Below, piece by piece: positions 1 to 64,000 of a DNA stretch of 64,000 nucleotides. The translations under genes were made by a program, and so were the position numbers. Numbering within the stretch: position 1 is the stretch's first letter; every line of letters starts with the position of its first letter. The notes beneath the pieces are model-generated. The model searched no databases and was not told where the DNA came from. It saw only the letters and a list, made by a program, of their open reading frames with translations. Source of the DNA: Paludibacteraceae bacterium (GTDB lineage Bacteria > Bacteroidota > Bacteroidia > Bacteroidales > Paludibacteraceae); NCBI GenBank assembly GCA_024405875.1, contig JAKSOA010000011.1:1-64000 (forward strand), in the 5' to 3' direction.

Positions 1-560
1 CTACCTGTGTAATACCTGTTACACTTGCTACATCTAAGGCAACTGCCCAAGTTGAGCCTGTTGATGCATCATACAAAGCAATAGACTGACCTGCGGCAAG
101 TGACTGATTTAGAACCATGTACTCTTGGAAGCCCTCCATTGGAGTTGGATTCTCTTGTCCTATCACAGGAGTTGTGCCGTCAATCATAATACCAAAACCT
201 GTTCCTCCAGGTGTTGGACCAGGTGTTGGACCAGGACCAGGGGTATCACCACAACCCGTACCTGCACCTATGTATAATTGATCATTACCCATTTGCAACT
301 TGATGTAGAAATCATAGCACCCTGTCTCTGTTACTGAATAACTCTTTTCATCTACCTGTGTAATACCTGTTACACTTGCTACATCTAAGGCAACTGCCCA
401 AGTTGAACCAGTACTCTCATCATACAAAGCAACAGTCTGACCTGCAGCAAGTGACTGATTTAGAACCATAAACTCTTGGAAACCCTCCATCGGGGTAGGA
501 TTCTCCTGCCCAATTACAGGAGTGGTACCATCAATCATAATGCCAAATGCGGCAAAAGAT
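1..560 (-). repeat. 351-bp tandem coding repeat
   Basis: The sequence starting at base 1 returns almost unchanged at base 352, giving a period of 351 bp or exactly 117 codons. Differences are few; one copy encodes DESTGSTW where the other encodes DASTGSTW. The near identity at DNA level points to recent duplication or gene conversion within the gene. Confidence 0.85.
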
Positions 561-610
561 GCAATGGTTGACAAAATAATCGCCGTGAATAACGTAAATA
601 ATTTCTTCAT
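1..610 (-). CDS. Secreted protein with tandem 117-residue repeats (3' part outside window)
   Basis: The reading frame is open from the ATG at 610 down to base 1, so about 203 codons are visible and the C-terminus lies outside. The product starts with a clear signal peptide (MKKLFTLFTAIILSTIASFA). It is followed by a module beginning FGIMIDGTTPVIG and ending NDQLYIGAGTGCG, a linker rich in Gly, Pro and Thr (PGPGPTPGPTPGG), and a second, nearly identical module. The repeat period is 351 bp. I do not recognise the family. The phrases YDFYIKL and NDQLYIG are reminiscent of small beta-sandwich carbohydrate-binding modules of Bacteroidetes surface proteins, but this is only an impression. A promoter lies just upstream. 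Confidence 0.75.
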   Translation of the reverse strand, partial: MKKLFTLFTAIILSTIASFAAFGIMIDGTTPVIGQENPTPMEGFQEFMVLNQSLAAGQTVALYDESTGSTWAVALDVASVTGITQVDEKSYSVTETGCYDFYIKLQMGNDQLYIGAGTGCGDTPGPGPTPGPTPGGTGFGIMIDGTTPVIGQENPTPMEGFQEYMVLNQSLAAGQSIALYDASTGSTWAVALDVASVTGITQV

Positions 611-663
611 TGTTTTGTAATAATTATAAGGTTAATAAATAGGTTAATTCAGAAATAGACGTA

Positions 664-694
664 CAAATTTACACATTATAACGGCATAAAACAA
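664..694 (-). promoter_or_regulatory. Promoter of the secreted repeat protein
   Basis: On the minus strand a TAAATTTG box (664-671) matches the Bacteroidetes -7 consensus TAnnTTTG. A TTG lies 20 bp upstream of it (692-694). The start codon at 610 would follow a leader of about 45 nt. Confidence 0.5.
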
Positions 695-703
695 CTATTT
701 TAC

Positions 704-711
704 TAACTTTG
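704..711 (+). promoter_or_regulatory. -7 box of the MATE gene
   Basis: TAACTTTG matches TAnnTTTG and sits 34 bp before the ATG at 746. No good -33 element is visible. It is divergent from the promoter of the repeat protein. Confidence 0.45.
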
Positions 712-745
712 TGTCGCTATAAACAAAAAAAACGCAAAAAAGACA

Positions 746-2152
746 ATGAATGACGGCATTTTAGATAACAGGACACTTGAATTGGAAGAGAAACCAATAG
801 GACAACTGCTGCTTATCTACGCTCTGCCGTCTGTTATAAGTCAGATTATCTCCTCTGTATATAATATAGCAGACCGAATCTTTATTGGGCAAGGCGTTGG
901 TCCGCTTGCCATAGCAGGTCTTGCCATAACATTTCCACTGATGAACGTCATACACGCATTCGGTGCACTTGTAGGTGTAGGTGCGGGTGCAAGAATGTCT
1001 ATTGTCTTAGGCAAGAAAGATTTATATTGGGCGGAGAAGATTTTGGGCAACGCCACCATACTCACCATTATATTCGGCGTTCTGCTGCTTGGTTTCGGAT
1101 ATGGCTTTATGGAAAAGATACTGATGCTGTTCGGTGCTACACAAGATACCATACAATACGCCCTTGAGTATATGAACATTGTAATGCCTGGTATGGTTCT
1201 CACAACGGTCACATTTAATTTAGCGTCACTTATCAGGTCAACAGGTTACCCAAAAAAGGCGATGTACATACTTGCTGGCGGAGCCATCCTCAATGTTATT
1301 TTAGACCCTATCTTCATATTTGTGTTCCATTGGGGCATTGCGGGAGCGGCTTGGGCAACAACCATCTCAATGGCAGTGACAGCCGTGGCATCCATACTTC
1401 ACTTTGTAAACAGAAGTTCATTCATAAGGTATAAACTACACGCTTGGATACCTAAACTGTTCATTTTCAAGAACGTGCTGATGATAGGATTGAGCCCGTT
1501 CCTTATGAACATTACCGCCGCTGGAGTCGTGGCTCTGCTTAACTCACAACTGCTGAAATATGGCGGAGACTACGCCGTGGGAGCATTTGGAATAGTCAAC
1601 AGTTACGCTAACTTCACATTCCTGTTCATCTTGGGAATCTGTCAGGGAATGCAGCCTATTGCCGGCTATAACTACGGGGCGGGGCATACTGACAGGCTGA
1701 AAGATATTTATGCCCTTACAAATAAGATATGTATAGCCATCGGGGTAATATGCAGTGCTATCTGCCTGATTATTCCGGAACCACTTGTACGTGTATTCAC
1801 AAAAGACCCCGACCTTATAAAAGTTAGCACCACTGCCATAAGGTTTATGATGGCAATGTTCCCGTTCATTGCATTTCACATAACCAACACAAACTTTTTT
1901 CAAGCCATTGACAAGCCTTGGGTATCAATAGTTACAAGCCTGTCACGCCAAGTAATATTCTTGTTGCCACTATGTTATGTAATTCCCACGATATTTGAAT
2001 CAATGGGAATGCCGGGGCTCAACGGTGTATGGGCGTCTTGTTCCATATCTGATGTATTAGGAGCCGTGCTTGCTGGCATACTGCTCTACAGTCAAAGAAA
2101 GGTTTTCACAACCCCATTGCCTCCAACTGCTCCTTTAAGCACTCAAGAGTAG
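746..2152 (+). CDS. MATE family efflux transporter
   Basis: This 468-residue integral membrane protein has about twelve hydrophobic segments in two homologous halves (roughly residues 20-190 and 240-420), as expected for the MATE/NorM/MepA family. Such proteins export cationic drugs or metabolites in exchange for H+ or Na+ at the inner membrane. The N-terminal PIGQLLLIYALPSVISQ segment and RIFIGQGVGPLAIAGLA are typical. Length is normal. The A-rich leader before the ATG is usual for this phylum. The 3' end overlaps the convergent HAD gene by 47 bp. The substrate cannot be deduced. Confidence 0.9.
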   Translation: MNDGILDNRTLELEEKPIGQLLLIYALPSVISQIISSVYNIADRIFIGQGVGPLAIAGLAITFPLMNVIHAFGALVGVGAGARMSIVLGKKDLYWAEKILGNATILTIIFGVLLLGFGYGFMEKILMLFGATQDTIQYALEYMNIVMPGMVLTTVTFNLASLIRSTGYPKKAMYILAGGAILNVILDPIFIFVFHWGIAGAAWATTISMAVTAVASILHFVNRSSFIRYKLHAWIPKLFIFKNVLMIGLSPFLMNITAAGVVALLNSQLLKYGGDYAVGAFGIVNSYANFTFLFILGICQGMQPIAGYNYGAGHTDRLKDIYALTNKICIAIGVICSAICLIIPEPLVRVFTKDPDLIKVSTTAIRFMMAMFPFIAFHITNTNFFQAIDKPWVSIVTSLSRQVIFLLPLCYVIPTIFESMGMPGLNGVWASCSISDVLGAVLAGILLYSQRKVFTTPLPPTAPLSTQE

Positions 2153-4778: not shown

Positions 4779-5345
4779 TTACCCACAGCAGTGTTCAATC
4801 ACAATCTTCACCCCGATGGCGATGAGGATAACGCCACCAAGAACACCGAATTTGAAGTGCAGTTTCTGACCGGCGTACGCACCAGTGAATGAACCTATTA
4901 GAGAGATAAGAAAACTTCCTACACCTATTATAATAATGCCACGCCATAGGCTATCTGGTGCGGTAAGGAACACAAGACCTGTGGCAAGTGCGTCAATGCT
5001 TGTGGCTATGGAAAGAAGTATCACAGTACCCACTGAATATGGATTCCTAACCTCACAACTCTCATCTTCTTTTGAGAACAAATCCTCCCAAATCATCTTG
5101 CCTCCTATAAAGGCTAGTATTGCAAATGCTATCCAATGGTCATAATCCCTGATATAATCAATAAACTCATTACCAATGAAATAACCTATTAGCGGCATCA
5201 AGCCCTGAAAGAGCCCGAACATAATGGCCATAAAGAGAAACCCGCCAAAATTAACTCTGCCTACGCAACCCGCCTTGGCAAGAGATACCGCAAAGCAGTC
5301 CATTGCCAAACCGACAGAAAGCAATATCAAGGTAATATAATCCAT
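4779..5345 (-). CDS. mntP: Manganese efflux pump MntP
   Basis: The 188 residues form six membrane helices in two inverted halves. Each half carries the conserved acidic motif of the family: LAMDCFAVSLAKAG near the N-terminus and TSIDALATGL in the second half. MntP exports Mn2+ across the inner membrane. Length is standard. The gene follows transketolase on the same strand across a 64-bp array of 8-bp repeats. No yybP-ykoY type riboswitch leader is visible. Confidence 0.9.
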   Translation of the reverse strand: MDYITLILLSVGLAMDCFAVSLAKAGCVGRVNFGGFLFMAIMFGLFQGLMPLIGYFIGNEFIDYIRDYDHWIAFAILAFIGGKMIWEDLFSKEDESCEVRNPYSVGTVILLSIATSIDALATGLVFLTAPDSLWRGIIIIGVGSFLISLIGSFTGAYAGQKLHFKFGVLGGVILIAIGVKIVIEHCCG

Positions 5346-5414: not shown

Positions 5415-7449
5415 AAAAGTTTTGAATGTAATTCAAAACTTTTGAATATACCGCCTCTCCGTTAAAGCCAAACTTCTCATCAAGAACAGTGTAAGGAGCG
5501 GAAAGTCCAAAGTGGTCAAGACCGGCGACAGTGCCTTTAAGTCCTACCGTACGCTGAAGCGTCATTGGCAAACCGGCAGTAAGTCCAAACACAGGTTTAG
5601 AGTAATCAATTACTGTGCGACGATAGGCTTCATCTTGTGCAAAGAATAGCCCTTCGCTTGGGATAGATACTATTTTTACCTTTAATCCGTTACGCTCTTC
5701 AAGAAGTGCGGCGGCATCAAACAGTGTGGCAACTTCTGAGCCACAAGCAACAAGTGTGACATCAAAATCCTTAGCATCTTTAACTATGTATGCGCCACGC
5801 TTTGCTCCCAAGCAACTCTCATACTTATTCTCACCACGAGGCAGGCTCTTAACATTCTGACGTGAAAGAATAAGACCTGTAGGTGTCTCCTTATTCTCAA
5901 GTGCCATCTGCCAAGCCACCGTTGTCTCATCAACATCGGCAGGACGCAGAACAAGCATAGAGTTCTGACCTTTGTGGTTCTTGAGAGCCTCCATAAGCCT
6001 TACCTGAAGTTCGTGCTCCACAGGCTGGTGTGTAGGACCATCTTCTCCAACACGGAAAGCATCGTGGGACCAAACATATATAACCTGCAAACGTTGCAAC
6101 GCAGACATACGGAATGCAGGCTTCATATAATCTGAGAATACAAAGAAAGTACCGCAAACAGGTATTATACCACCGTGCAGAGCCATACCGTTCATAATAC
6201 AAGCCATTGTAAGTTCACTTACACCAGCATTTAGGAATCCACCTGAAAAATCTCCCTTCTTGAACGGTTTGCTGTGTTTAAGGAATCCCTCTGTCTTATC
6301 TGAATTAGACAAGTCAGCGGAAGAAACCACCATATTCTCTATCTTCTCTGAGAAGAGAGCGAGCAGACTACCCGATGCCGAACGTGTAGGCTGGTCTTGT
6401 TTCTGTTCTATACTTGAGAAATCAATAGCAGGTAACTCCTTGCTATAGAACGACTTGAACTTCTTATACATTTCAGGCTGAGCCTTTGCGTATGCTGCCT
6501 CATCTGCCTTACGTGCGGCGGCTATTTTCCTAAGTTCCTCCTTGCGGGCGGCATATATGGCGGCAACCTCAGGGAATATTTGGAACGGGTCATCGGGGTT
6601 ACCACCAAGACCAGCGATGGTCTTAGCCACATCAACGCCAGCCTTTGAAAGCGGTTGTCCGTGGGTGGAAACTTTGTTCTCATAACTCTCCCCGTTAGGT
6701 CCAAGGGCACCTTTACCCATAATGGTCTTACCAATTATAAGTGTAGGACGCTCAGTCTCCGCCTTTGCCTTTGCAAGAGCCTCACGAATCTGAGAAGCGT
6801 CATTACCGTCAATTGTCATAACGTTCCAACCCCAAGACTTGTATTTAAGAGCGGTATCCTCATCGGTTACCTCATTTACGTATGTTGAGAGTTGGACATT
6901 ATTGGCGTCAAAGAACATTATGAGATTGCTAAGACCAAGCAGACCGGCAATTCTGCCAGCACCTTGTGAAATCTCCTCCTGAATACCACCGTCAGAGATG
7001 TACGTGTAAATCTTGTGTTTTGTCCACTCGCCGAACCTTGCAGCCATAAAACGCTCAGCGATGGCGGCGCCCACAGCCATCGTATGTCCTTGGCCAAGAG
7101 GCCCTGAAGTGTTCTCTATTCCGTGCTCAAAATCAACCTCAGGGTGTCCAGGACAGATTGTACCCCACTGACGGAATGTCTTGAGGTCATCTAATGTGTA
7201 CTTACCGGCAAGCGTAAGAGCCGAATAGAGCATTGGAGACATATGACCAGGATCAAGAAAGAAACGGTCACGGTTCACCCACAATGCGTCATCGGGGTCA
7301 TACTCAAGAAACTCAGAATAGAGGACATTAATGAAATCAGCACCACCCATAGCACCGCCAGGATGCCCTGATTTAGCCTTTTCAACCATAGCGGCGGAGA
7401 GAATTCTAATGTTGTCAGCCGCCTTGTTAAGAGAAGATATAGAGTTCAT
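5410..7449 (-). CDS. tkt: Transketolase
   Basis: This 679-residue thiamine diphosphate enzyme transfers two-carbon ketol units in the non-oxidative pentose phosphate pathway. Visible signatures are KSGHPGGAMGGA near the N-terminus, GPLGQGHTMAVG, the cofactor-binding YISDGGIQEEISQGAG region, and RVGEDGPTHQPVEHELQ in the pyrimidine domain. Length is normal for the family. The last codons and the stop run into an 8-bp repeat array. rpe of the same pathway is encoded 24 kb away. Confidence 0.97.
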   Translation of the reverse strand: MNSISSLNKAADNIRILSAAMVEKAKSGHPGGAMGGADFINVLYSEFLEYDPDDALWVNRDRFFLDPGHMSPMLYSALTLAGKYTLDDLKTFRQWGTICPGHPEVDFEHGIENTSGPLGQGHTMAVGAAIAERFMAARFGEWTKHKIYTYISDGGIQEEISQGAGRIAGLLGLSNLIMFFDANNVQLSTYVNEVTDEDTALKYKSWGWNVMTIDGNDASQIREALAKAKAETERPTLIIGKTIMGKGALGPNGESYENKVSTHGQPLSKAGVDVAKTIAGLGGNPDDPFQIFPEVAAIYAARKEELRKIAAARKADEAAYAKAQPEMYKKFKSFYSKELPAIDFSSIEQKQDQPTRSASGSLLALFSEKIENMVVSSADLSNSDKTEGFLKHSKPFKKGDFSGGFLNAGVSELTMACIMNGMALHGGIIPVCGTFFVFSDYMKPAFRMSALQRLQVIYVWSHDAFRVGEDGPTHQPVEHELQVRLMEALKNHKGQNSMLVLRPADVDETTVAWQMALENKETPTGLILSRQNVKSLPRGENKYESCLGAKRGAYIVKDAKDFDVTLVACGSEVATLFDAAALLEERNGLKVKIVSIPSEGLFFAQDEAYRRTVIDYSKPVFGLTAGLPMTLQRTVGLKGTVAGLDHFGLSAPYTVLDEKFGFNGEAVYSKVLNYIQNFC

Positions 7450-7484
7450 ATTTTGTGAATTTTATTTCCATCACGTAAACTCTA

Positions 7485-7492
7485 CAAAGTTA
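7485..7492 (-). promoter_or_regulatory. tkt: -7 box of tkt
   Basis: On the minus strand TAACTTTG lies 35 bp before the ATG at 7449. A matching -33 element at 19-21 bp is not evident. Confidence 0.45.
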
Positions 7493-7565
7493 CTCATTAT
7501 AAAAAGAAAAAACGGGAAAATCAAATAGGAGTTATTAACATTTTTCCCACCTGCACAAGAAGGTA

Positions 7566-8396
7566 TCAGAAACCGTTCTGTTCTCTGAACTGCCTGACTT
7601 TTTTTGAGGGAATACGATATGTGAGCAGATATTCAAACCCGAAGTTCACCGCCCCGTCAGAACATTGACCGAAACCTGGGACGTATGTAGGCGTGGTTAA
7701 ATGACTCTCATAAAAGTGAGCGAAGGTCTTAACCTTAGCGTTTATGCCCATAAAGAAATCTTTATAAACCTGCACCCTTACTGTAGCCATAAACTCCACC
7801 CAACCCATATTAGCGGTCTGTTTAGGAGTTGAGACTTTTGAATCCTCCTTCCAATATGAATCCCCGATGGCAACATCAGACAAAGTATATGATACATTGG
7901 AATAACCATACCTCACACCCACCCCGAACATATGGTCATACTTGCGGTCTGGTTTGGTATTAAGGAAGTTATACATTGCGCCGGCACGCACAAATAGGCC
8001 GTTAGTGGAATAACGGTATGTGTCATAGTTATGATTCTGGAACATCATACCATACTCTATAACAGGCACTAACCTATGCCATAGAGAGACATCGGCACTG
8101 ACAACAAACTCAAACCTGCCGTCACTCCACGCCGTAGCAATAGGATTGAAAATATCAAGACTTATGAATGTACCCTGATACACGGGCATCTTTAGTTTGA
8201 AAGTGTCACGCGGAGCGTCAGCGGGAGCACGGTCTATTACAAGAACAGAATCAATATGCACAGTTCCTATAGTATCTTTATGTGTATCCGCCATCAACGT
8301 TGTAGTGTCATTTACCACAACAATGGAATCAGCCTGCGCGGCAAACATTGCAACAGGTAAAATCAGCAGCAATATGTTAAAAATATATCTTGACAT
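7566..8396 (-). CDS. Outer-membrane beta-barrel protein, DUF6048-like
   Basis: The 276-residue product has a signal peptide (MSRYIFNILLLILPVAMFAAQA). A low-complexity segment rich in Asp and Thr follows, then alternating aromatic/hydrophobic strands such as YRYSTNGLFVRAGAMYNFL, consistent with an outer-membrane barrel. It resembles the Bacteroidetes DUF6048 family of unknown function, which I recall lying next to DUF6452 lipoproteins, as here. The gene starts 20 bp inside the upstream lipoprotein gene, so the two are probably translated together. Confidence 0.65.
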   Translation of the reverse strand: MSRYIFNILLLILPVAMFAAQADSIVVVNDTTTLMADTHKDTIGTVHIDSVLVIDRAPADAPRDTFKLKMPVYQGTFISLDIFNPIATAWSDGRFEFVVSADVSLWHRLVPVIEYGMMFQNHNYDTYRYSTNGLFVRAGAMYNFLNTKPDRKYDHMFGVGVRYGYSNVSYTLSDVAIGDSYWKEDSKVSTPKQTANMGWVEFMATVRVQVYKDFFMGINAKVKTFAHFYESHLTTPTYVPGFGQCSDGAVNFGFEYLLTYRIPSKKVRQFREQNGF

Positions 8397-8844
8397 TTAT
8401 ATTCTGCTCAACATTTATAACTTCAGGGCTGTATAATTCAATTGTCTTATACAATCTACCTGTATTTTTCACCTTGAATGAATCCACCTTAAATATAGGC
8501 ACACAGCCACAGGCAGGACTTACAAACTGAGTCTCCTGCTTATGAAATACAGAAATAGTGTCATTAATTACACTCTCCCCGTTTTTAAAGGAAATTGCAT
8601 AGTTAGTAGAGTCTTTAGTAGTGTGCAACGGCAGATATATGGCACTTACACTGGCATTATTATAAAGCACCGAATCACTACCCAACCCCTTGCCTGTAAC
8701 ACCAGAGACCGTAACCGGCTTTCTGTTCAATGAATCCAGAAATCCAACACCAAGCATAGAGCGTGTCGGCTGATAACACCCCTCACGGCACGATGTAAGT
8801 GCAACCGTCAAAATCAATGCAAATATGTAAACTATGCGCTTCAA
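8377..8844 (-). CDS. DUF6452-like lipoprotein
   Basis: The 155-residue protein starts with a lipoprotein signal ending in a lipobox (ALILTVALTSC), so it should be anchored in the outer membrane or periplasm. The rest is beta-rich (NYAISFKNGESVINDTISV) with QFVSPACGCVPIF near the middle. The family is conserved in Bacteroidales but has no known role. The start is a TTG (8844): no in-frame ATG precedes the signal peptide. This TTG sits at the edge of an ATTAATT repeat array. Confidence 0.7.
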   Translation of the reverse strand: MKRIVYIFALILTVALTSCREGCYQPTRSMLGVGFLDSLNRKPVTVSGVTGKGLGSDSVLYNNASVSAIYLPLHTTKDSTNYAISFKNGESVINDTISVFHKQETQFVSPACGCVPIFKVDSFKVKNTGRLYKTIELYSPEVINVEQNINVKIYF

Positions 8845-9135
8845 TTTAATTAATAATTAATAATTAATAATTAACATTTGTTAAAACTTCGTTTTAACTT
8901 TTAACTTCGCCTATCGGCTTGTAAAAGTTAAATAACCTTCTCTTACCCCACCCCAAACCCCTCCCTTGGGGAGTGGCTTAGTCGCAACTATCGTTGCTCC
9001 GTAACAGTGCTATATATAACTTTGTTAAAACTTCGTTTTAACCATGTTACTTCGTCTCTCGGCATAACTCAAGTAAACTTAGTTCTGCTCTCGTTCCTAG
9101 TAACAGTTAACTTTTCTTTTTTAACTTTTAACTTT
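8845..9135. repeat. Repeat-filled intergenic region
   Basis: This 291-bp gap holds no convincing gene. From left to right it contains a 7-bp AATTAAT array (about 8845-8874), TTTTAACTT-type motifs, an inverted copy of the interspersed element also seen at 3648 (8940-9005, with GGAGTGGCTTAGTCGCAAC), and a second block of AACTTTT units (about 9106-9135) reaching the nitroreductase stop. Confidence 0.65.
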
Positions 9136-10166: not shown

Positions 10167-10186
10167 AAAACAATGTTTAATCGTGG

Positions 10187-10248
10187 AATCGGTGAATCGG
10201 TGAATCGTTAATTATTAATTGTTAATTGTTAATTATTAATTGTTAATT
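10187..10248. repeat. 8-bp then 7-bp tandem array
   Basis: Two GGTGAATC units (10191-10206) are followed without a break by GTTAATT, ATTAATT, GTTAATT, GTTAATT, ATTAATT and GTTAATT (10207-10248). The TAA stop of the glycosyltransferase gene (10247-10249) begins in the last unit. Confidence 0.9.
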
Positions 10249-53275: not shown

Positions 53276-53297
53276 CACTGCCTTTATAAAGGCAAAC

Positions 53298-53862: not shown

Positions 53863-53871
53863 AATTAATAA

Positions 53872-54555: not shown

Positions 54556-54584
54556 TTTTAACTTTTCTTTTTTAACTTTTAACT

Positions 54585-55367: not shown

Positions 55368-55394
55368 TTTTCTTTTTTCACTTTAAACTATCCT

Positions 55395-56843
55395 CTACCC
55401 TCTCATTTTCTTCTCAAGTTCCACCAATTTCTGTCTCAGTTCCTCCTTCTCCTTCCTCATCTTCTCTATCTGAGCCTCCATTTGCTTGAGCAATGGATTC
55501 TTATCACCTTTGGAACCAAAATTCAGGAAAGACATATTATTTTCTCTTGTAGTAAGGTCTGCCACTAATTTGTCATAGGCACGGCGAAGTTTCTCATACT
55601 CCTTTGAAATTGAAACCACACCCTCTGTAGCGGCTTTCTTCTGTTCAAAGAAATAGTCACACGCACTCTTGAAAGCGTTCCATATCTGGTCACTCACACG
55701 TTTTGACACAGGTCCTACCGCCTTCCACTCCTTCTGCAGTTTCACAAAGGCGTCTGTCGCCTCCTTCCACTCCTTGCTATCCTTCAAAGCCTCCGCGGCG
55801 GCAACCAACTCCTTCTTCTTTTGCAAATTAATTGCGAATGCCTCCTTTGTACTCTTATAGAATTCGTTCTTCGCTTTGAATATCTCATCACAAGCGGAAC
55901 GGAAACGCTCATATATCCTATTATTCACCTTCTTAGGTGCGAAACCACTCTTTTTCCACTCTTCCTGCAACTCCAGAACCTTAGCCGTTATCTCATCCCA
56001 AGCCTTATATGACTTAGCCTTTGCAATATCAATAGCCTCAATAGCCTCACACAGGGCTGTCTTCTTAGAGAGGTTTTCCTCTTCCTCCGCCTTCTTTGCC
56101 TGATAGAAATCAGCGTGCTTATGGTTCACAATATCTGTGGCTGCCTTGAACCTGTTCCACAGTTCATCTCTTAGTTCCTTAGCCACAGGACCCGTCTCAC
56201 GCCACTCCTGATGCAGTTTCTGCAACTTCTGGAAAGCGTCATTGAGTTGTTTTGACTCTGTAAGTTTCTCAGCCTCCTCACAAAGACGAGTCTTTATCTC
56301 AAGATTCTTCTTAAAGTCATAGTCACGCAGTTCATTGCTTATCCTCACATCATCATAGAACTGAGTCATCAGGGTCTGATACTTCTTAACTATCTCATTA
56401 TATTTGCTCTGAGCAACCTCTCCCGCCTCTTTCCACTCAGCCTGAAGTTTGCGGACCTCAGCAAATATCTTATCCACGTCACCGCCATCTAAGAGAGAGG
56501 TCAGTTTGTCAACTATACCCTTCTTAATCTCATACGCACGCTCCTGCATAGCCTCAATTTTCTTTAGTTCCTCAGCGCGCTTCTGCTTATAAGCCTGCAA
56601 AAGTGCCTTGAACTCAGCCTCCTCAGCAAATGAATGTGCGAACTCACTGATGTCCTTTCCGTCATCAATCCAAGCCTGCTTCATCTCATCAAGCAACGCA
56701 CTGTGACGTTTATAGAATTGTGATTTCAACTGTGCGACCTTCTCCTTTGCCTGGTCACCATCTAAAACTGCCTTCAATTGCTCTACAATCTCAGCAAGAG
56801 ACAACTCATCTTTTCTCTCTTCTTTTTCAATATTCTCTTCCAT
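55395..56843 (-). CDS. DUF349 repeat coiled-coil protein
   Basis: The 482 residues are almost entirely helical and built from about five DUF349 repeats, each with a Trp-containing core such as LQKLHQEWRETGPVAKEL or FVKLQKEWKAVGPVSKR. The C-terminus is a short coiled coil rich in Lys and Glu. DUF349 proteins are widespread in Bacteroidetes; their role is unknown. A well-formed promoter precedes the gene. Confidence 0.9.
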   Translation of the reverse strand: MEENIEKEERKDELSLAEIVEQLKAVLDGDQAKEKVAQLKSQFYKRHSALLDEMKQAWIDDGKDISEFAHSFAEEAEFKALLQAYKQKRAEELKKIEAMQERAYEIKKGIVDKLTSLLDGGDVDKIFAEVRKLQAEWKEAGEVAQSKYNEIVKKYQTLMTQFYDDVRISNELRDYDFKKNLEIKTRLCEEAEKLTESKQLNDAFQKLQKLHQEWRETGPVAKELRDELWNRFKAATDIVNHKHADFYQAKKAEEEENLSKKTALCEAIEAIDIAKAKSYKAWDEITAKVLELQEEWKKSGFAPKKVNNRIYERFRSACDEIFKAKNEFYKSTKEAFAINLQKKKELVAAAEALKDSKEWKEATDAFVKLQKEWKAVGPVSKRVSDQIWNAFKSACDYFFEQKKAATEGVVSISKEYEKLRRAYDKLVADLTTRENNMSFLNFGSKGDKNPLLKQMEAQIEKMRKEKEELRQKLVELEKKMRG

Positions 56844-56891
56844 ATCTTATAATTTTTTACCCCGATGACACCTCGTGGATATACAAAGTAG

Positions 56892-56922
56892 CAAAGTTAT
56901 GAAAAAATTCAGTTAAATACAA
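56892..56922 (-). promoter_or_regulatory. Promoter of the DUF349 gene
   Basis: On the minus strand TTG (56920-56922), 20 bp and TAACTTTG (56892-56899) fit the Bacteroidetes consensus. Confidence 0.65.
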
Positions 56923-56931
56923 TACAATCCA

Positions 56932-57828
56932 CTATTTTTGTCTGGCACGGCTACGTTGCACTATCCAAACACCAGAGAGAACCATCAGGGCGGCTGTGAG
57001 TTTTAAGATACTGAATGTGTCCATACCTGTGCAAATACCTACTACAGACGCTATTATAGGTTGCAGATAGCCATACATACTTATTATTGTAGGTCGTATG
57101 CGTTTCTGAGCCACAGGAATAAGAAAATAGGAGACAAACGTAGCCATAACAACAGTAAATAGCAAATCACCTATTATGTTAAGCGGAATAGAGGTATAAT
57201 CTATCTTCAATAGATGCGGTAATGAGAAAGGCAGACTCATAACGGCAGAGAATAGGAACATCCACTTCATAAAAGTTATGACGCTGTACTTTTTTATAAG
57301 CGGAGAGAACACACCCAAATATATGGCGAATGAGAGTCCGTTCACAAGCATAAGCACAATGCCCAAAGGTTGCGTTGTCTGTACTCCACCATTTGATACG
57401 GTATTGGCTATCAATATATTGACACCCGTAAGACTCACAAACACACCGGTAACCTTCTTCACAGTTATAGGCTCCTTAATGGCAATGGCGGCGACTATCA
57501 TTGTAAACACAGGAGTGAAAGATGTTATTATGGCACAATCAAAAGGAGTTGTTATTTGCACCGCCTTAAGAAAGACAATCTGGCATAGGAACAACCCCAC
57601 CATAGCGGCGGCGAAGATCTTAGGGAAGTCTCGTGGCTCAACCCTCTCTTTTTTTGTGAACGCCGATGCTATCCAGAACAGTACTGTAGCACCTACCGCC
57701 CTTAATGTAAAGACATCCAATGGCGCTATGGTACCGTCAACGGCAATGGCGCGGCAGGTCAGAATATTAACCCCGAATATAATGTACGCCACAGCGGCTG
57801 CTATATGCCCTGTTATTGTCTGATTCAC
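56932..57828 (-). CDS. DMT-superfamily EamA transporter
   Basis: This ten-helix protein of about 298 residues has two EamA halves, for example VAYIIFGVNILTCRAIAV and MYGYLQPIIASVVGICTG. It is an inner-membrane drug/metabolite transporter of unknown substrate. No ATG exists near the start. Longer starts up to 57900 would lie upstream of a -7 box, so GTG at 57828 or TTG at 57834 is preferred. The stop abuts the DUF349 promoter. Confidence 0.85.
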   Translation of the reverse strand: MNQTITGHIAAAVAYIIFGVNILTCRAIAVDGTIAPLDVFTLRAVGATVLFWIASAFTKKERVEPRDFPKIFAAAMVGLFLCQIVFLKAVQITTPFDCAIITSFTPVFTMIVAAIAIKEPITVKKVTGVFVSLTGVNILIANTVSNGGVQTTQPLGIVLMLVNGLSFAIYLGVFSPLIKKYSVITFMKWMFLFSAVMSLPFSLPHLLKIDYTSIPLNIIGDLLFTVVMATFVSYFLIPVAQKRIRPTIISMYGYLQPIIASVVGICTGMDTFSILKLTAALMVLSGVWIVQRSRARQK

Positions 57829-57860
57829 ACTCAACACACTCTGTTTTAAGAATATCGCCG

Positions 57861-57868
57861 CAAAATTA
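57861..57868 (-). promoter_or_regulatory. -7 box of the EamA gene
   Basis: TAATTTTG on the minus strand fits TAnnTTTG, and sets the likely translation start downstream at 57834 or 57828. Confidence 0.45.
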
Positions 57869-57914
57869 ATACTAATTTTGCAAAAATTATTTAGCCGCAA
57901 TCATAGTTTTTTTG

Positions 57915-57922
57915 TAACTTTG
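57915..57922 (+). promoter_or_regulatory. -7 box of the paaK operon
   Basis: TAACTTTG lies 34 bp before the paaK ATG. No convincing -33 element is found. Confidence 0.5.
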
Positions 57923-57956
57923 TCACTTATTTGAAATCTAAAGAATAATAACAACA

Positions 57957-59267
57957 ATGGACAAAAGTCAATTTTACAATCCTGTGGAGACAATAAGCAG
58001 GGCGGATTTGAAAAAATTACAGTTTGAACGTCTTCAAAAGACAATTTTGAGAGCACTGAATGTGCCTTTCTATCAGAAAGCATTCAAGGAGAGAGGAATA
58101 GCGGCATCAGACATAAGAAGCCTTGATGACATAAGAAAACTTCCATTCACAACAAAAGATGATTTAAGGAACAACTACCCTTTCGGGATGGCTGCCATTC
58201 CACTAAAAGAGTGTGTCAGAGTACACTCATCAAGCGGTACCACAGGCAACCCTACAGTTGTGCTTCATAGTAAGAATGACCTTGACGCCTGGGCTGAGCT
58301 TGTGGCTCGCAACCTCTATATGGTAGGCGTGAGAGACACAGATGTGTTCCAGAACACCTCAGGATACGGAATGTTCACTGGTGGTCTTGGATTCCAATAT
58401 GGCGCTGAGAAACTTGGCTGTCTCACAGTTCCCGCCGCCGCCGGCAACAGCAAGCGTCAGATTAAGTTTATGAAAGACTTTGGCACAACAGTTGTGCACA
58501 TTATACCGTCATACGCCACTCGTCTGGCAGAAGTTATGCAGGAGGAGGGCGTTGACCCACGCAAGGATTTGAAGATAAAGATTCTTGCCATCGGGGCTGA
58601 GCCACACACAGAGGAACAGCGTAAGCGCATAGAGGAACTGCTTGGCGTAAAGGCCTACAACTCATTCGGAATGAGTGAGATGTGCGGTCCTGGCGTGGCT
58701 TTTGAGTGCAAGGAGCAGAACGGAATGCATATTTGGGAGGATAATGTTATAGTTGAGATTGTTGACCCTGTGACACTTGAGCCTGTGCCTGACGGAGAGA
58801 TTGGCGAACTTGTTTTGACAACCCTCAACCGTGAGGCAATGCCACTTATCCGTTACCGCACACGTGACCTTACCCGCATTATTCCGGGAGAGTGCCCTTG
58901 CGGACGCACACACCGCCGTCTGGCTCGTTTCCAAGGACGTAGTGATGATATGATGATATTAAAAGGTGTAAACATCTTCCCTATCCAGATTGAGAAGATT
59001 CTTATGGGTTACAAAGAGTTAGGCAGTAATTTCCTTATTACATTGGAGACAATAAACAACAATGATGAAATGACTGTAGAGGTTGAACTTGGTGAGTTGG
59101 GCACTGACAATGTAGGAGACCTTAAGGATTTGGTTAAGAACATCACCCGCCAACTTAAAGATGAGATACTTATAACACCAAAAGTAAAACTTGTACCTAA
59201 AAATTCCCTACCTTCAGCAGAAGGTGGAAAAGCAGTCAGAGTTAAGGATTTAAGAAAACTATTCTAA
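57957..59267 (+). CDS. paaK: Phenylacetate-CoA ligase
   Basis: The 436-residue adenylating enzyme shows VHSSSGTTGNPTVVLHSKND (P-loop), YNSFGMSEMCGPGVAFEC, and the C-terminal FQGRSDDMMILKGVNIFP. This is the PaaK branch, not the fatty-acid branch. It activates phenylacetate or indoleacetate to its CoA thioester. In gut Bacteroidetes it is usually linked to indolepyruvate ferredoxin oxidoreductase; here the symporter, aminotransferase and ACT genes follow instead. Confidence 0.95.
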   Translation: MDKSQFYNPVETISRADLKKLQFERLQKTILRALNVPFYQKAFKERGIAASDIRSLDDIRKLPFTTKDDLRNNYPFGMAAIPLKECVRVHSSSGTTGNPTVVLHSKNDLDAWAELVARNLYMVGVRDTDVFQNTSGYGMFTGGLGFQYGAEKLGCLTVPAAAGNSKRQIKFMKDFGTTVVHIIPSYATRLAEVMQEEGVDPRKDLKIKILAIGAEPHTEEQRKRIEELLGVKAYNSFGMSEMCGPGVAFECKEQNGMHIWEDNVIVEIVDPVTLEPVPDGEIGELVLTTLNREAMPLIRYRTRDLTRIIPGECPCGRTHRRLARFQGRSDDMMILKGVNIFPIQIEKILMGYKELGSNFLITLETINNNDEMTVEVELGELGTDNVGDLKDLVKNITRQLKDEILITPKVKLVPKNSLPSAEGGKAVRVKDLRKLF

Positions 59268-59285
59268 TCACCGAACCACCATATA

Positions 59286-60791
59286 ATGACATTAGTAGCA
59301 CTGATATTATATTTCGCAGTCCTATTAGGCATAGGATTCTATTGCCGTAAGCACTCAACTGATGTGAATGGTTTTGTGCTTGGTGGCAGAAGCGTCGGTC
59401 CCTGGCTTACAGCATTCGCCTACGGAACCTCCTACTTCTCTGCGGTTATTTTTGTAGGCTATGCCGGTCAGTTTGGCTGGAGGTATGGCCTGTCATCATC
59501 GTGGATAGGAGTGGGCAACGCCATAATAGGCTCACTACTTGCCTGGGTGATACTTGGCAAACGTACAAGAGTTATGAGCCAGCATCTGAACTCCTCCACA
59601 ATGCCTGAGTTCTTTGGAGCCAGATTTGACAGCAACGCACTGAAAATCTGCGCATCTGTAATTGTCTTTGTGTTTATGATACCCTACACGGCGTCACTCT
59701 ACAACGGACTCTCACGCCTCTTTGGAATGGCGTTCAGCATTGACTATTCAGCCTGCATAATACTTATGGCGGTTCTTACAGCCATTTATGTAATTGCCGG
59801 CGGATATATGGCTACGGCTATAAATGATTTTATACAAGGTATAATAATGCTCTTTGGCATAGTAATAATAATAATTGCGGTACTAAAGACACAAGGCGGA
59901 CTTGTTGAAGCCGTTAACAAGATGGCTCTTATTGAGGACGCTGGTGCCGGTGTTGCAAAGGGTGAGTTCGCGTCTGTGTTCGGCCCCGATGTCATAGGCT
60001 TGACATTTGTGGTGCTGCTCACCTCTCTTGGCACGTGGGGGCTTCCGCAGATGGTTCAGAAATTCTACGCCATCCGTGATGAGAAGTCAATTCTCAAGGG
60101 AACCATAGTCTCAACCATATTCGCTCTAATAGTTGCCGGAGGCTGCTACTTTATGGGAGGTTTCGGACGTCTGTTTGACGGTCCCGCACTCTATAATGCG
60201 GAAGGTAAGATAATTTATGACGCCATAGTGCCTGAAATGCTCTCAACACTCTCCCCCGCCCTTATAGGTTTGGTTGTGATATTAGTGCTGTCAGCAAGTA
60301 TGAGCACACTATCATCTCTTGTAATAACCTCATCATCAACGCTTACAATTGACTTTCTGAAAGACAATTTCATTAAGAATATGAGTGACAGGAAGCAGGT
60401 AAGGTGCATACGGGTGTTCATCGTGGTGTTCATAGCCATAAGTGCGGTAATAGCACTTATACAATACAGCAGTTCAGTCACATTCATAGCACAACTTATG
60501 GGTGTGAGTTGGGGCGCTATGGCGGGAGCGTTCCTCGCCCCGTTCCTATATTCACTCTATGGCAAGTGGGTGTCAAGGGCGTCTTGCTGGGTCTGCTTCA
60601 TATTCAGCACCACACTTATGCTTGCCAATATGATTATCCGCCCATATTTCCCGGAACTGTTCCAATCCCCCATCAACTGCGGTGTACTTGCTATGGTGGC
60701 AGGCTTTGTAATAGTTCCCGTAGTCAGTGCGTTCACTAAAAAACAAGATAAAAACAGGTTAGAGCAAATATTTGAATGCTACTATAATTAA
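59286..60791 (+). CDS. Sodium:solute symporter (SSS family)
   Basis: The 501 residues span about thirteen helices. The opening has VNGFVLGGRSVGPWLTAFAYG, then STMPEFFGARFDS, and later VLVLSASMSTLSSLVITSSS with the sodium-site serines. SSS proteins import organic acids, amino acids or sugars with Na+. Its place after paaK makes an aromatic acid a reasonable guess. An AATCACC-GAACCACC repeat lies in the 18-bp gap before it. Confidence 0.9.
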   Translation: MTLVALILYFAVLLGIGFYCRKHSTDVNGFVLGGRSVGPWLTAFAYGTSYFSAVIFVGYAGQFGWRYGLSSSWIGVGNAIIGSLLAWVILGKRTRVMSQHLNSSTMPEFFGARFDSNALKICASVIVFVFMIPYTASLYNGLSRLFGMAFSIDYSACIILMAVLTAIYVIAGGYMATAINDFIQGIIMLFGIVIIIIAVLKTQGGLVEAVNKMALIEDAGAGVAKGEFASVFGPDVIGLTFVVLLTSLGTWGLPQMVQKFYAIRDEKSILKGTIVSTIFALIVAGGCYFMGGFGRLFDGPALYNAEGKIIYDAIVPEMLSTLSPALIGLVVILVLSASMSTLSSLVITSSSTLTIDFLKDNFIKNMSDRKQVRCIRVFIVVFIAISAVIALIQYSSSVTFIAQLMGVSWGAMAGAFLAPFLYSLYGKWVSRASCWVCFIFSTTLMLANMIIRPYFPELFQSPINCGVLAMVAGFVIVPVVSAFTKKQDKNRLEQIFECYYN

Positions 60792-60828
60792 TTGAAAATT
60801 AATTACTAATTATTAATTGCTAATTAAA

Positions 60829-62136
60829 ATGAACACTCCTATTAGCAGAGAATTGATAGATAAATCCATTGAGGAGTTTGGCATTAAAGACTTCTCAAAG
60901 GCTACCATACGTGAGGTGAAGGCTATAGCAGCCCTTGCAGAGAAGAAGTCTGGCGTTGAATTTATAAAGATGGAGATGGGTGTCCCCGGTCTTCCGCCTT
61001 CAAAAGTTGGCGTAGAGGCACAGGTAAAGGCGCTACAAGGTGGCATAGCCCGTCTCTACCCCGATATAAACGGACTTGCTGAACTCAAGAGTGAGGCTGC
61101 GCGTTTTGGCAGTCTATTTATTGACACCGATGTAAAGCCAGAGGGTTGTGTTCCTGTAACAGGCTCAATGCAAGGCACTTACGCATCATTCCTTACCGCT
61201 TCACAGTGTGTTGAGGGCAAAGATACCATTCTCTTTATTGACCCTGGTTTCCCTGTTCAGAAGCAGCAGATTGTGGTTATGGGTGCAAAATACAAGACAT
61301 TTGACGTTTACCATCATCGTGGTGAGAAGTTGAGAGCCAAACTTGAGGAGTTTCTCAAGCAGGGAGATATTGCGGCAATTGTATATAGCAACCCTAACAA
61401 CCCTTCCTGGGTATGCCTGAGAGATGAGGAACTGCGCATAATAGGAGACCTTGCAAATAGATATGATGTTATTGTGTTTGAAGACCTCGCCTACTTTGCA
61501 ATGGATTTCCGCAAAGATTTGAGCAAGCCGGGCAAAGCACCGTTCCAACCATCAGTGTCACACTATACAGATAACTGCGCAATGCTCATAAGCGGTTCAA
61601 AAGCATTTAGTTATGCAGGAGAGCGCATTGGCGTTGTTTGTATGACAGACAAACTCTATCACCGTGCATATCCGGGTCTCACAAAGAGATACGGCGGCGG
61701 CACATTCGGAACAGTATTTGTTCACAGAGTGCTCTACGCCCTTTCAAGCGGAACAAGCCACAGTGCCCAATACGCTATGGCAGCAATGCTTAAGGCGGCT
61801 AATGACGGCACATACAATTTCCTTGATGAGGTTAAGGTTTATGGAGAGCGAGCGCACAAACTAAAGGAGATTTTCTGCAAGCACGGCTTCCACATTGTAT
61901 ATGATATGGATATGGACCAGAAAGTTGCTGACGGGTTCTACTTTACAATAGGATATAAGAATATGACATCGGGGCAACTTGCAAAAGAGTTGATGTACTA
62001 TGGAATATCAGCCATAACACTCACCACAACAGGCAGTGAGCAGGAGGGACTCAGAGCCTGCACTTCATTCATTGAAGACCATCAATATGAGGAACTTGAT
62101 AAGAGATTGACAATTTTTGAGGAAAATAATAAATAA
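60829..62136 (+). CDS. PLP-dependent class I/II aminotransferase
   Basis: The ATG at 60829 gives MNTPISRELIDKSIEEFG; an upstream in-frame TTG lies in an ATTAATT repeat. The 435 residues show SNPNNPSWVCLRDEELRI, VFEDLAYFAMDF and the PLP lysine in ISGSKAFSYAGERIGVV. It belongs to fold type I. Its operon neighbours suggest an aromatic amino acid or its arylpyruvate as substrate, by inference. Confidence 0.88.
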   Translation: MNTPISRELIDKSIEEFGIKDFSKATIREVKAIAALAEKKSGVEFIKMEMGVPGLPPSKVGVEAQVKALQGGIARLYPDINGLAELKSEAARFGSLFIDTDVKPEGCVPVTGSMQGTYASFLTASQCVEGKDTILFIDPGFPVQKQQIVVMGAKYKTFDVYHHRGEKLRAKLEEFLKQGDIAAIVYSNPNNPSWVCLRDEELRIIGDLANRYDVIVFEDLAYFAMDFRKDLSKPGKAPFQPSVSHYTDNCAMLISGSKAFSYAGERIGVVCMTDKLYHRAYPGLTKRYGGGTFGTVFVHRVLYALSSGTSHSAQYAMAAMLKAANDGTYNFLDEVKVYGERAHKLKEIFCKHGFHIVYDMDMDQKVADGFYFTIGYKNMTSGQLAKELMYYGISAITLTTTGSEQEGLRACTSFIEDHQYEELDKRLTIFEENNK

Positions 62137-62143
62137 TTGAATT

Positions 62144-62530
62144 ATGATAGTTGAACAAATTTCTGTTTTTGTTGAGAACAAGGCAGGCAGTATTGAGAAA
62201 GTTACAAAAGTATTAGCCGATGCAAACATTGGTATTCGCACATTCTGTACAGAAGACGGTTCTGATTTTGGCATATTGAGAATGCTTGTATCAGACCCGG
62301 GGAAAGCCGAAACTGTATTGAAAGAGAACGGATTCAGTGCTTTCCGCAATAAAGTTGTAGCGGCAAAATGCGCAAACAAGACTGGTTCTTTGTCATATCT
62401 GCTCAATAAATTATCAGAAAAAAACATATCTGTTGAATATATGTATGCCTTTCAAGATAATGATGAGGCAAAGGTGGTTCTTAGAACAAAGGACATTGAA
62501 TTGTGCAACACAATAATAGAAGAAGAGTAA
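62144..62530 (+). CDS. Tandem ACT domain protein
   Basis: The 128 residues contain two ACT domains (EQISVFVENKAGSIEKVTKV and VVAAKCANKTGSLSYLLNKL), which bind amino acids. Small stand-alone ACT proteins next to paaK are known in Bacteroidetes. It probably senses an aromatic amino acid and regulates a neighbour. It starts 7 bp after the aminotransferase stop. Confidence 0.9.
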   Translation: MIVEQISVFVENKAGSIEKVTKVLADANIGIRTFCTEDGSDFGILRMLVSDPGKAETVLKENGFSAFRNKVVAAKCANKTGSLSYLLNKLSEKNISVEYMYAFQDNDEAKVVLRTKDIELCNTIIEEE

Positions 62531-62536
62531 ACGCTT

Positions 62537-62560
62537 GGCGTAGGGGTTTGGGGATACGCC
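62537..62560 (+). other. Hairpin with G-rich loop before thrA
   Basis: GGCGTA (62537-62542) and TACGCC (62555-62560) enclose GGGGTTTGGGGA. The loop shares AGGGGTTTGGGG with the interspersed element at 3648 and 8940. It lies just after the ACT stop and could be a weak terminator or part of a thrA leader. Confidence 0.55.
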
Positions 62561-62666
62561 CCAATAGAAAAGGTAAAATTACTTTCATTTTACATTAGCC
62601 ATACAAGCCAATGTAAATGAAGTGAATAATATACAAAAAGCAATATATTACTAATTGAAAAGTAAA

Positions 62667-64000
62667 ATGAAAGTATTAAAATTTGGAGGAACGTCAGTTG
62701 GTTCCGCAGAGAATATCCTTAAAGTCAAGGATATTGTTGAGAGCACTGGCACTGAAGCCATTGTTGTAGTTTCCGCTATGAGCGGAGTAACAGATCTGCT
62801 CATCAAGACTGCTGAGACAGCAGCCAAAGGTGACGCTACATACACAACTCTTTTCACAGAGTTGACACAACGCCACACTACAACAGCCACTGCTGTAACT
62901 CCAAAACAAAGTGTCAGTGAGGCGTTAAAAGGTCTTGAAAATTATTTTTCAGAGTTAAAGGCACTCTATGACAACATATTCAAGACAAAGCAACTGAGTC
63001 CTGAGACATTACGCACAGTTGTAAGTTACGGAGAAAAAATGAGTTCTCTGTTCCTTGCCTTTGTTCTTGGGGCAAAACACTTTAACTCACCTGACATAAT
63101 TAAGACAACAGAATATCATAAAAAGACCGTTCTTGACAAGAGCGTAACCTATCAGAACATTGCAAAGGCGTTTGAGAGAGTGCCAGCAAAAAGTATTATG
63201 GGTGGGTTCATATCATCTGACTCCAAGAGTGGTGACATAACAAATCTTGGTAGAGGCGGCTCTGACTACACTGCGGCGATAGTTGCAGGGGCTCTTGAGG
63301 CGGAGGCTCTTGAAATATGGACCGATGTTGACGGCTTTATGACGGCAGACCCCCGACTTGTACCTAACGCATACACTATTGAGGAACTCTCATACATTGA
63401 GGCTATGGAACTCTCCAACTTTGGAGCCAAGGTACTCTACCCTCCCACCATATATCCTGTGTATGAGCGTAATATACCTATATTTATTAAGAATACTAAC
63501 AATCCGTCATTCAGAGGCACAAGAATATCAAATATTCAGAACCCGGAGGGCAAGGCAATCAAGGGTATCTCATCAATAAATGACACCTGCCTTATAACAC
63601 TTCAGGGAATGGGTATGGTTGGTGTGCTTGGAATCAGTTCAAGAACATTCAAGGCACTTGCCGATGAGGGCATAAGCGTATTTCTTATCTCACAAGCGTC
63701 ATCAGAGAACTCAACCACATTTGCGGTTATGAATTCAGAGGCTGACGCAGCCGTCAAGGCTCTTACAAAGGAGTTCAAGGCTGAACTTGAAAGGGGTGAG
63801 ATTTGGTCTATAACACCAAAGATGAATCTTGCCACAGTTGCCATCGTGGGAGAGAATATGAGATTCAATACAGGACTTGCAGGCAAGTTGTTTGACACTC
63901 TTGGCCGTAGCGGCATTAATATCATAGCCTGCGCTCAAGGTGCGTCAGAGACCAATATTTCATTTGTTATTACTCAAAAATATCTTCAAAAAGCTTTAAA
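62667..64000 (+). CDS. thrA: Aspartokinase / homoserine dehydrogenase (3' part outside window)
   Basis: The visible 444 residues start VLKFGGTSVGSAENILKV. They have the aspartokinase core NLGRGGSDYTAAIVAGAL and EIWTDVDGFMTADPRLVP, and then two ACT domains (FLISQASSENSTTFAV and IIACAQGASETNISFVI). This spacing is that of ThrA, where a homoserine dehydrogenase domain follows; that part is beyond the window, so the bifunctional nature is inferred. The enzyme opens threonine and methionine synthesis. It is 27 kb from apgM-thrC. Confidence 0.92.
   Translation, partial: MKVLKFGGTSVGSAENILKVKDIVESTGTEAIVVVSAMSGVTDLLIKTAETAAKGDATYTTLFTELTQRHTTTATAVTPKQSVSEALKGLENYFSELKALYDNIFKTKQLSPETLRTVVSYGEKMSSLFLAFVLGAKHFNSPDIIKTTEYHKKTVLDKSVTYQNIAKAFERVPAKSIMGGFISSDSKSGDITNLGRGGSDYTAAIVAGALEAEALEIWTDVDGFMTADPRLVPNAYTIEELSYIEAMELSNFGAKVLYPPTIYPVYERNIPIFIKNTNNPSFRGTRISNIQNPEGKAIKGISSINDTCLITLQGMGMVGVLGISSRTFKALADEGISVFLISQASSENSTTFAVMNSEADAAVKALTKEFKAELERGEIWSITPKMNLATVAIVGENMRFNTGLAGKLFDTLGRSGINIIACAQGASETNISFVITQKYLQKAL

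Follow-up and report, generated by a model that had tools for sequence, protein, structure and literature searches.

An octamer iterated on both strands in one group of a Paludibacteraceae genus, tentatively read as a word for self-DNA recognition

Among highly iterated genome words, three classes have been distinguished, namely Chi sites, uptake sequences and HIP1 (PMC4390886; all papers cited in this text are drawn on in excerpt). Chi is recognised by its over-representation in the core genome together with its polarity (PMC8022716), the DNA uptake sequence (DUS) dialects of Neisseriaceae have a required CTG core in common and follow phylogeny (PMC3630211), and the copies of HIP1 in cyanobacteria are proposed to have been ratcheted up by a methylation-linked route (PMC4390886). 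Here we describe such a word, the octamer CATCGGGG, in a 64,000-nucleotide stretch of DNA from a Paludibacteraceae bacterium (assembly GCA_024405875.1, contig JAKSOA010000011.1, positions 1 to 64,000), referred to below as the window. A sequence-only reading of the window had singled out the octamer as strongly over-represented on both strands, and had suggested a selected genome signal. We found no report of CATCGGGG in the open-licence literature on Chi or uptake words in Bacteroidota.

The octamer is present in 37 copies in the window, 24 on the plus strand and 13 on the minus strand, compared with 0.90 +/- 0.94 copies in 100 dinucleotide shuffles (largest 4), and it outscores every other 8-mer of the window under an order-3 Markov model. 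The over-representation claimed by the sequence-only reading is thus borne out; its counts agree with ours, as does its expectation of about one copy, and 14 of its 15 example positions match, the remaining one being corrected in Table 1. The copy that it placed inside tRNA-Thr, and set aside as not independent, is indeed there. The window belongs to a draft genome (G000; 1,853,289 bases, or 1.85 Mb, in 38 contigs, 78.7% complete), of which it forms C3:1-64000. The whole draft holds 665 copies, 334 on the plus strand and 331 on the minus strand, compared with 16 (7 + 9) of the reversed control word. The 24:13 orientation therefore holds in the window and not genome-wide, with the qualification that contig orientation is arbitrary in the draft, which limits the meaning of the 334:331 ratio. 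The window, with 5.8 copies per 10 kb, exceeds the genome mean of 3.6 by a factor of about 1.6. In a 464-kb sample of the same genome, comprising the window and 20 stretches of 20 kb (L001-L020), with called open reading frames (ORFs) covering 92%, CATCGGGG is the most exceptional 8-mer (181 seen, 4.5 expected, order-3 Markov). A variant, CATCGTGG, is present in the window in 19 copies, with 1.25 +/- 1.07 expected.

The excess is not a product of codon usage. In the ORFs of the 464-kb sample, 173 copies are observed, compared with 6.3 +/- 2.5 in 100 within-gene synonymous codon shuffles (maximum 14), and the reversed control word stays at expectation in the same test (4 seen, 4.6 expected). 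Shuffled codons had been named beforehand as the control that could overturn the claim, and the claim withstands them. Of the 181 copies, 8 fall outside ORFs; the 173 within them comprise 92 sense copies (xSG, 53; xIGx, 37; HRG, 2) and 81 antisense copies (xPDx, 70; xPM, 11). Five of the six strand and phase contexts are therefore occupied and the sixth is empty, consistent with the earlier observation that copies fall in different codon phases and in both orientations to genes. Specifically, the codon pair TCG-GGG is seen 62 times with 2.4 expected, even though both codons are rare (TCG, 3.9% of serine codons; GGG, 9.7% of glycine codons), indicating, together with the shuffles, that the copies are placed against codon preference. 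It is barely credible that the excess reflects codon or codon-pair usage, or chance: the pairs TCG-GGG, ATC-GGG and CCC-GAT are enriched, yet these are the motif itself, and synonymous shuffles reject codon bias as the cause for a word that stands on both strands and in five contexts.

The word has a strict core and tolerant ends. Under synonymous shuffles, single changes at core positions 2-5 (ATCG) reach only 0 to 1.3 times expectation. Some changes elsewhere are tolerated: T at position 1 reaches 6.6 times, T at position 6 reaches 8.1 times, and T or C at position 8 reach 4.0 times each; tolerance is weaker for any change at position 7 (1.8 to 2.5 times) and for A at position 1 (2.0 times). 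A G stands two bases 5' of CATCGKGG in 61/99, 38/64 and 34/55 copies of the three commonest contexts (21, 14 and 18 expected), with an unclear preference in the fourth context (6/20, 4.3 expected) and between genes (5/16), and a T follows CATCGKGG more often than expected, intergenic copies included (11/16). The full motif approximates G-N-[C/T]ATCG[G/T]GG-T (G-N-YATCGKGG-T). Flank information fades past positions -3 and +2, indicating that CATCGGGG is a bare word, and ruling out a longer or mobile repeat as its source.

Along the genome, copies are strand-neutral and randomly spaced. Strand bias of CATCGKGG is absent in all 13 sampled contig pieces (lowest p 0.23), with counts of 25:25 on C1, 10:17 on C2, 33:23 on C3 and 22:16 on C4. 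Adjacent CATCGGGG copies lie on the same strand in 77 cases and on opposite strands in 91, so that polarity of the type known for FtsK-orienting polar sequences (KOPS) or Chi is not seen on the sampled contigs, which belong to a draft without a mapped replication origin. Gaps between copies have a coefficient of variation of 1.06, as in random spacing, with no regular period. The density of CATCGKGG varies from 3 to 19 copies across the 20 stretches of 20 kb (chi-square 48, p 2.6e-4) and rises with GC content (rho 0.64); by eye, a poor stretch (L014) carries adhesins, repeats and toxin-type genes and a rich stretch (L015) carries housekeeping genes. Genes longer than 2.5 kb (19/392) are poorer in the motif, with 2.4 compared with about 6.4 copies per 10 kb. 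The longest CATCGGGG gap on C1 (110173-146531, 36 kb), chosen for its length, would hold about 13 copies at the genome mean, and it contains a Mu-like prophage and a Cas9-like gene, both named by eye from translations rather than by family search. The prophage (about 110.4-136.6 kb of C1, L141 408 to L142 6607), recognised from a transposase pair and from terminase, portal, tail sheath and tape-measure-like ORFs, has no CATCGGGG, no CATCGTGG and one TATCGGGG. The Cas9-like gene just past it (L142 8952-12873, minus strand) appears as two ORFs, of 1036 and 305 aa, which overlap and lie in different frames.

Strong enrichment is confined to one group inside the genus. Among the 80 AtpA loci kept, the nearest five relatives are uncultured Bacteroidia/Bacteroidales metagenome-assembled genomes (79-82% identity), which places G000 in Bacteroidales; one of these has a record that mentions water buffalo cecum, and two more carry the prefix RUG, which presumably denotes rumen genomes. 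Of the 16 genomes of the genus, six have CATCGGGG in strong excess (G000, 665; G002, 367; G010, 303; G001, 287; G012, 282; G003, 199), with 15 to 33 copies of the reversed control word and a 9- to 42-fold ratio to it; in the other ten, copy numbers range from 10 to 77 and do not exceed 4.3 times the control. Outside the genus, among 250 genomes of the family (33 genera) and 24 at order level, genomes holding more than 100 copies reach at most 4.5 times their control, and a few with fewer than 30 copies reach 6- to 7-fold. No comparable word stands out in five other sampled Bacteroidales (G029, G043, G057, G058 and G060; 37-70 kb coding each). In G060, which holds 237 copies (control 56), 417 kb of coding sequence contains 28 copies with 11.5 expected, rank 205 of 32033 words, indicating that a roughly fourfold ratio to the backward control is by itself no signal. 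The AtpA of the five enriched relatives is 88 to 91% identical to that of the window; in the remainder, identity is 81 to 86%. In an AtpA tree built without G012 and four motif-poor genomes, G000, G001, G002, G003 and G010 form one clade (100/99), which G011, with 15 copies, adjoins (92/94).

Enriched species differ in the form of the word that they iterate. CATCGTGG reaches 312 copies in G000 (control 37), and the other five enriched genomes have 77 to 134 copies each (controls 47 to 59). CATCGGGT is raised in the sister species G002 (544, control 76) and G010 (580, control 53), slightly raised in G003 (98, 35), and little or not at all raised in G000 (74, 45), G001 (65, 52) and G012 (71, 58). 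Synonymous shuffles agree with these dialect counts for G000, G001, G002, G003 and G010; in G012, where 52 kb of coding sequence was shuffled, the word is seen 4 times with 0.5 expected and is not the top word. In these six genomes, dialects track species phylogeny, G002 and G010 having one in common. The words GCATCGG and GGCATCGG, also raised in G001 and G003, may represent additional dialect forms or extend the motif upstream. It is well supported that CATCGGGG is a real DNA-level signal, selected or driven, on the basis of the codon shuffles, the occurrence on both strands and in five of six contexts, the prophage without copies, and the dialects; the sequence-only reading was right on this point. 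Most simply, the signal was gained within this genus.

Most CATCGGGG copies are not common to relatives in the aligned sample. At aligned orthologous sites, the G000 copy is identical in 9/52 cases in G003, 3/19 in G010, 1/20 in G002, 2/25 in G001, 0/15 in G012 and 0/9 in G011, and neighbouring 8-mers in the same phase are identical in 15%, 7%, 9%, 8%, 7% and 3%, respectively. Any YATCGKGK form is found at 12/52, 8/19, 6/20, 2/25, 0/15 and 0/9 of the sites in the same order, indicating that part of the site set is common to relatives in dialect form. In five of the six comparisons, bases at the sites are less often identical than those nearby (G001, 0.555 vs 0.688 per base), and in G010 the two values are equal. 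Judging from the motif-poor relatives, copies were presumably gained in G000 rather than lost elsewhere.

The genomes encode candidate partners for several kinds of DNA word. The ComEC gene reported by the sequence-only reading is real but short: the ComEC-like protein scores over the NCBIfam cut-off for the N-terminal domain and under the cut-off for full ComEC/Rec2. It can be aligned in the five enriched relatives and partly in G011, and its gene is possibly part of an uptake route. DprA is found in 13/16 genomes of the genus, and the three without a match, including motif-rich G010, are at most 83% complete. An AddA/RecB-like helicase-nuclease (1030 aa) and an AddB-like PD-(D/E)XK protein (973-aa frame, 794 residues scanned) are present, both under their NCBIfam equivalog cut-offs, and a strong AddB-type PF12705 match occurs in 15/16 genomes, motif-rich or motif-poor, with a weak match only in G015. 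RecC is found in 0/16 genomes with a model that matches only E. coli among 14 controls, and RecBCD was set aside as a partner on this result. Vsr is found in 4/16 genomes (G000, G002, G005 and G015), with no match in motif-rich G001, G003, G010 and G012.

Table 1. Positions of the octamer, its variant CATCGTGG and the ComEC-like gene in the window
Feature	Position	Strand	Remark
CATCGGGG	488..495	+	
CATCGGGG	1738..1745	+	
CATCGGGG	4811..4818	-	
CATCGGGG	6591..6598	+	
CATCGGGG	7290..7297	+	
CATCGGGG	7862..7869	-	
CATCGGGG	9237..9244	+	
CATCGGGG	10897..10904	+	
CATCGGGG	12278..12285	+	
CATCGGGG	13518..13525	-	
CATCGGGG	14589..14596	+	
CATCGGGG	16597..16604	-	
CATCGGGG	18305..18312	+	
CATCGGGG	21372..21379	+	
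CATCGGGG	28867..28874	+	
CATCGGGG	31963..31970	+	sequence-only reading gave 31973
CATCGGGG	34844..34851	+	
CATCGGGG	36819..36826	-	
CATCGGGG	37146..37153	+	
CATCGGGG	39392..39399	+	
CATCGGGG	40884..40891	+	
CATCGGGG	42034..42041	-	
CATCGGGG	42519..42526	+	
CATCGGGG	43641..43648	+	
CATCGGGG	44997..45004	-	
CATCGGGG	46580..46587	-	
CATCGGGG	47076..47083	+	
CATCGGGG	48293..48300	-	
CATCGGGG	49825..49832	+	
CATCGGGG	51311..51318	+	
CATCGGGG	52142..52149	-	
CATCGGGG	53358..53365	-	inside tRNA-Thr (53298-53371); not independent
CATCGGGG	54291..54298	+	
CATCGGGG	56860..56867	-	outside called ORFs
CATCGGGG	58589..58596	+	
CATCGGGG	59984..59991	-	
CATCGGGG	61967..61974	+	
CATCGTGG starts (span 6060..63849)	6060, 17014, 20237, 23037, 36571, 59497, 60419, 61315, 63842	+	
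CATCGTGG starts	9386, 11054, 19495, 20848, 21309, 23701, 32796, 33769, 34568, 43031	-	
Short ComEC-like gene	31748..32998	+	416 aa; Competence domain PF03772 only

Other words also depart from expectation in these genomes. TGACGGCA was considered as a second word and dropped, since, although above shuffles, its commonest contexts in G000 are a sense-strand Asp-Gly codon pair; TGACGGCA/TGCCGTCA are above synonymous shuffles in G000, G001, G003 and G012. CATCGAGG is Markov-enriched, but lies at expectation under synonymous shuffles. AT-rich words, probably short tandem repeats in both cases, are iterated in the window (GTTAATT/AATTAAC type) and in G009 (AGTTAGGA type, L117-L120). Several words are scarce in the 464-kb sample, namely CATATG (33 seen, 291 expected), GTATAC (16, 111), GTAGAC/GTCTAC (15, 109) and CATCCG (57, 149), which we take to resemble NdeI-, AccI- and FokI-type restriction sites and which looks like avoidance.

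Among the alternatives to self-DNA recognition, a Chi-like site deserves the most weight and is a distinct possibility: the AddAB-type helicase-nuclease of the clade would switch at CATCGGGG from degradation to recombination, so that own DNA is repaired and foreign DNA degraded. The AddA/RecB-like and AddB-like proteins and the strong PF12705 matches provide such an enzyme, and the word suits it, being GC-rich, ending in GKGG, lying nearly always within genes, occurring about once per 2 to 3 kb and missing from the prophage. However, the sampled contigs show no polarity, which also tells against the Chi-like class offered by the sequence-only reading; motif-poor relatives carry the same type of enzyme, and no comparable word was found in G009 (71 kb) or G011 (75 kb coding), small samples both. 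Furthermore, the AddA and AddB scores fall short of their NCBIfam cut-offs, RecC is missing as far as an essentially E. coli-specific model can tell, and a change of dialect inside one genus is, in our judgement, unusual for Chi.

Methylation-linked ratcheting of the HIP1 kind, in which the word or its core would be the target of a DNA methyltransferase and copy number would be driven up by mismatch repair, by selection or by the two together, appears improbable here. The octamer is highly iterated, strand-neutral and sporadic among relatives, as in the model set out in the excerpts of PMC4390886, but it is not palindromic (vs CCCCGATG), as the HIPs described there are, and differences from relatives at sites span several bases, so that a single biased step would not suffice. 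We regard as more improbable still the binding of CATCGGGG by a nucleoid- or chromosome-organising protein: many strand-neutral copies and the regional density differences are compatible with it, but spacing is random, and five relatives do not preserve the high density of the window (0.32 to 1.56 of the genome mean), with no common regional hot-spot found. Very-short-patch (Vsr-type) mismatch repair that turns near-misses into CATCGGGG is very unlikely, and the mismatch-repair class of the sequence-only reading does not fit in this form. The own genome and G002 do have a Vsr gene, and the C-to-T neighbour TATCGGGG occurs often (33 seen, 5.0 expected), although raised rather than depleted, but the other seven transition neighbours lie at 0.4 to 2.5 times expectation, Vsr occurs in G005 and G015 with only 77 and 73 copies of CATCGGGG, and it has no match in four motif-rich genomes, among them G003 (95% complete) and G012 (96%). 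The gene distribution therefore largely contradicts Vsr repair, with genes lost from drafts as a small loophole.

We tentatively favour self-DNA recognition, in which CATCGGGG would be the core of a site that allows the cell, or its recombination route, to recognise DNA as its own. Copies would accumulate because some DNA-handling step prefers DNA that carries them, and our first choice for this step would be biased uptake and recombination of kin DNA by a pilus-independent competence route of Bacteroidota. The word would then act like an uptake sequence, a putative surface or periplasmic DNA-binding protein would read it, and preferential uptake or recombination would be the driving force. 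In a simple equilibrium model, we estimate that the 24- to 40-fold excess would correspond roughly to a 2Ns of 3 to 4 per copy. In its strand neutrality, its dialects and its restriction to one clade, the word resembles uptake sequences, and to this extent the uptake class of the sequence-only reading fits. Consistent with a route of this kind, Porphyromonas gingivalis is competent, with no type II secretion system (T2SS) or type IV secretion system identified and a type IV pilus (T4P)-like pilus not involved, according to the excerpts of PMC11532111. In Riemerella anatipestifer, likewise competent with no pilus route known, transformation depends on ComEC, DprA, ComF and RecA and on four further essential proteins without homology to known transformation proteins (PMC8459023); Riemerella columbina takes up its own DNA by preference, and homologues of PilB, PilC, PilQ and PilT are reported in Flavobacterium johnsoniae (both PMC7965970).

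Several observations weigh against this preferred reading. No PF00437 ATPase, which we take to comprise the PilB, PilT, GspE and TadA types, scores over the cut-off in the 16 genomes of the genus, with two sub-threshold matches, whereas 13/14 control genomes do; the T4P/T2SS-type ATPase that an uptake class would suggest is thus not seen, and the uptake systems of Neisseria and Haemophilus use type IV pili. The precedents in Bacteroidota lessen this objection. Transformation itself is putative in this uncultured genus, the ComEC-like protein is short, and the k-mer table for R. columbina, in the excerpts of PMC7965970, contains A-rich words only. Close inverted pairs are not in excess: the 181 CATCGGGG copies form 2 opposite pairs within 120 bp, and the 262 CATCGKGG copies form 11 pairs within that distance, 8 opposite and 3 same-strand, which is not significant. 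Intergenic copies are not in excess either (8/181, 13.9 expected by length). Two crude comparisons of conserved with other genes show no difference (83 vs 223 genes, p 0.67; 24 vs 345, p 0.55-0.61, or, without the window, 19 vs 287, p 0.73-0.75), so that core-gene enrichment of CATCGGGG is not established. CATCGTGG reaches 6 to 9 times its backward control in motif-poor G014 (91:10), G007 (94:16) and G029 (163:22), while 58 kb of G029 coding sequence shows no excess over shuffles (1 seen, 2.0 expected), indicating that a high ratio alone is not proof of a dialect. Finally, the poor sharing of copies between species gives no preference for uptake over the other readings.

On balance, we place an uptake-like role slightly ahead of a Chi-like one and file the word in neither family. 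Genome words iterated this strongly are, in our judgement, uncommon, and most arose too long ago for their origin to be followed. In this genus, some species have the word and others do not, and dialects differ between species, so that its start, spread and change can be tested by comparison. If CATCGGGG is an uptake signal, dialects would imply sexual isolation within Bacteroidales, and a new DNA receptor would be implied as well. We would call it doubtful that this is the first uptake-sequence system with dialects in Bacteroidota, served by a pilus-independent receptor, that arose in one genus in which close relatives still show the prior state; were it so, the birth of an uptake sequence could be watched. 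If the word is Chi-like, this group would gain a candidate Chi that departs from the rule of polarity.

Compared with the described systems, CATCGGGG resembles each in part. HIP1 of cyanobacteria (GCGATCGC) is likewise a highly iterated octamer without known purpose, with variants and a sporadic distribution; unlike HIP1, CATCGGGG is not palindromic and stands at about 1 copy per 2.8 kb rather than about 1 per kb. Like Chi (E. coli GCTGGTGG and its AddAB equivalents), it is a GC-rich, over-represented 8-mer ending in GKGG, mostly in genes, missing from one prophage and accompanied by an AddAB-type enzyme; unlike Chi, it shows no polarity, its enrichment and dialects are confined to part of one genus, and the enzyme is also found in motif-poor relatives. 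From the DUS of Neisseriaceae and the uptake signal sequence (USS) of Pasteurellaceae it differs in phylum, in having no excess of inverted close pairs or of intergenic copies, and in a genus with no ATPase of type IV pilus type over the cut-off. With DUS and USS it has in common, as judged from sequence alone, hundreds of strand-neutral copies, a short required core with tolerant ends, and species dialects common to sister species; in particular, the strict ATCG core with its tolerant ends parallels the required CTG core of the Neisseriaceae DUS.

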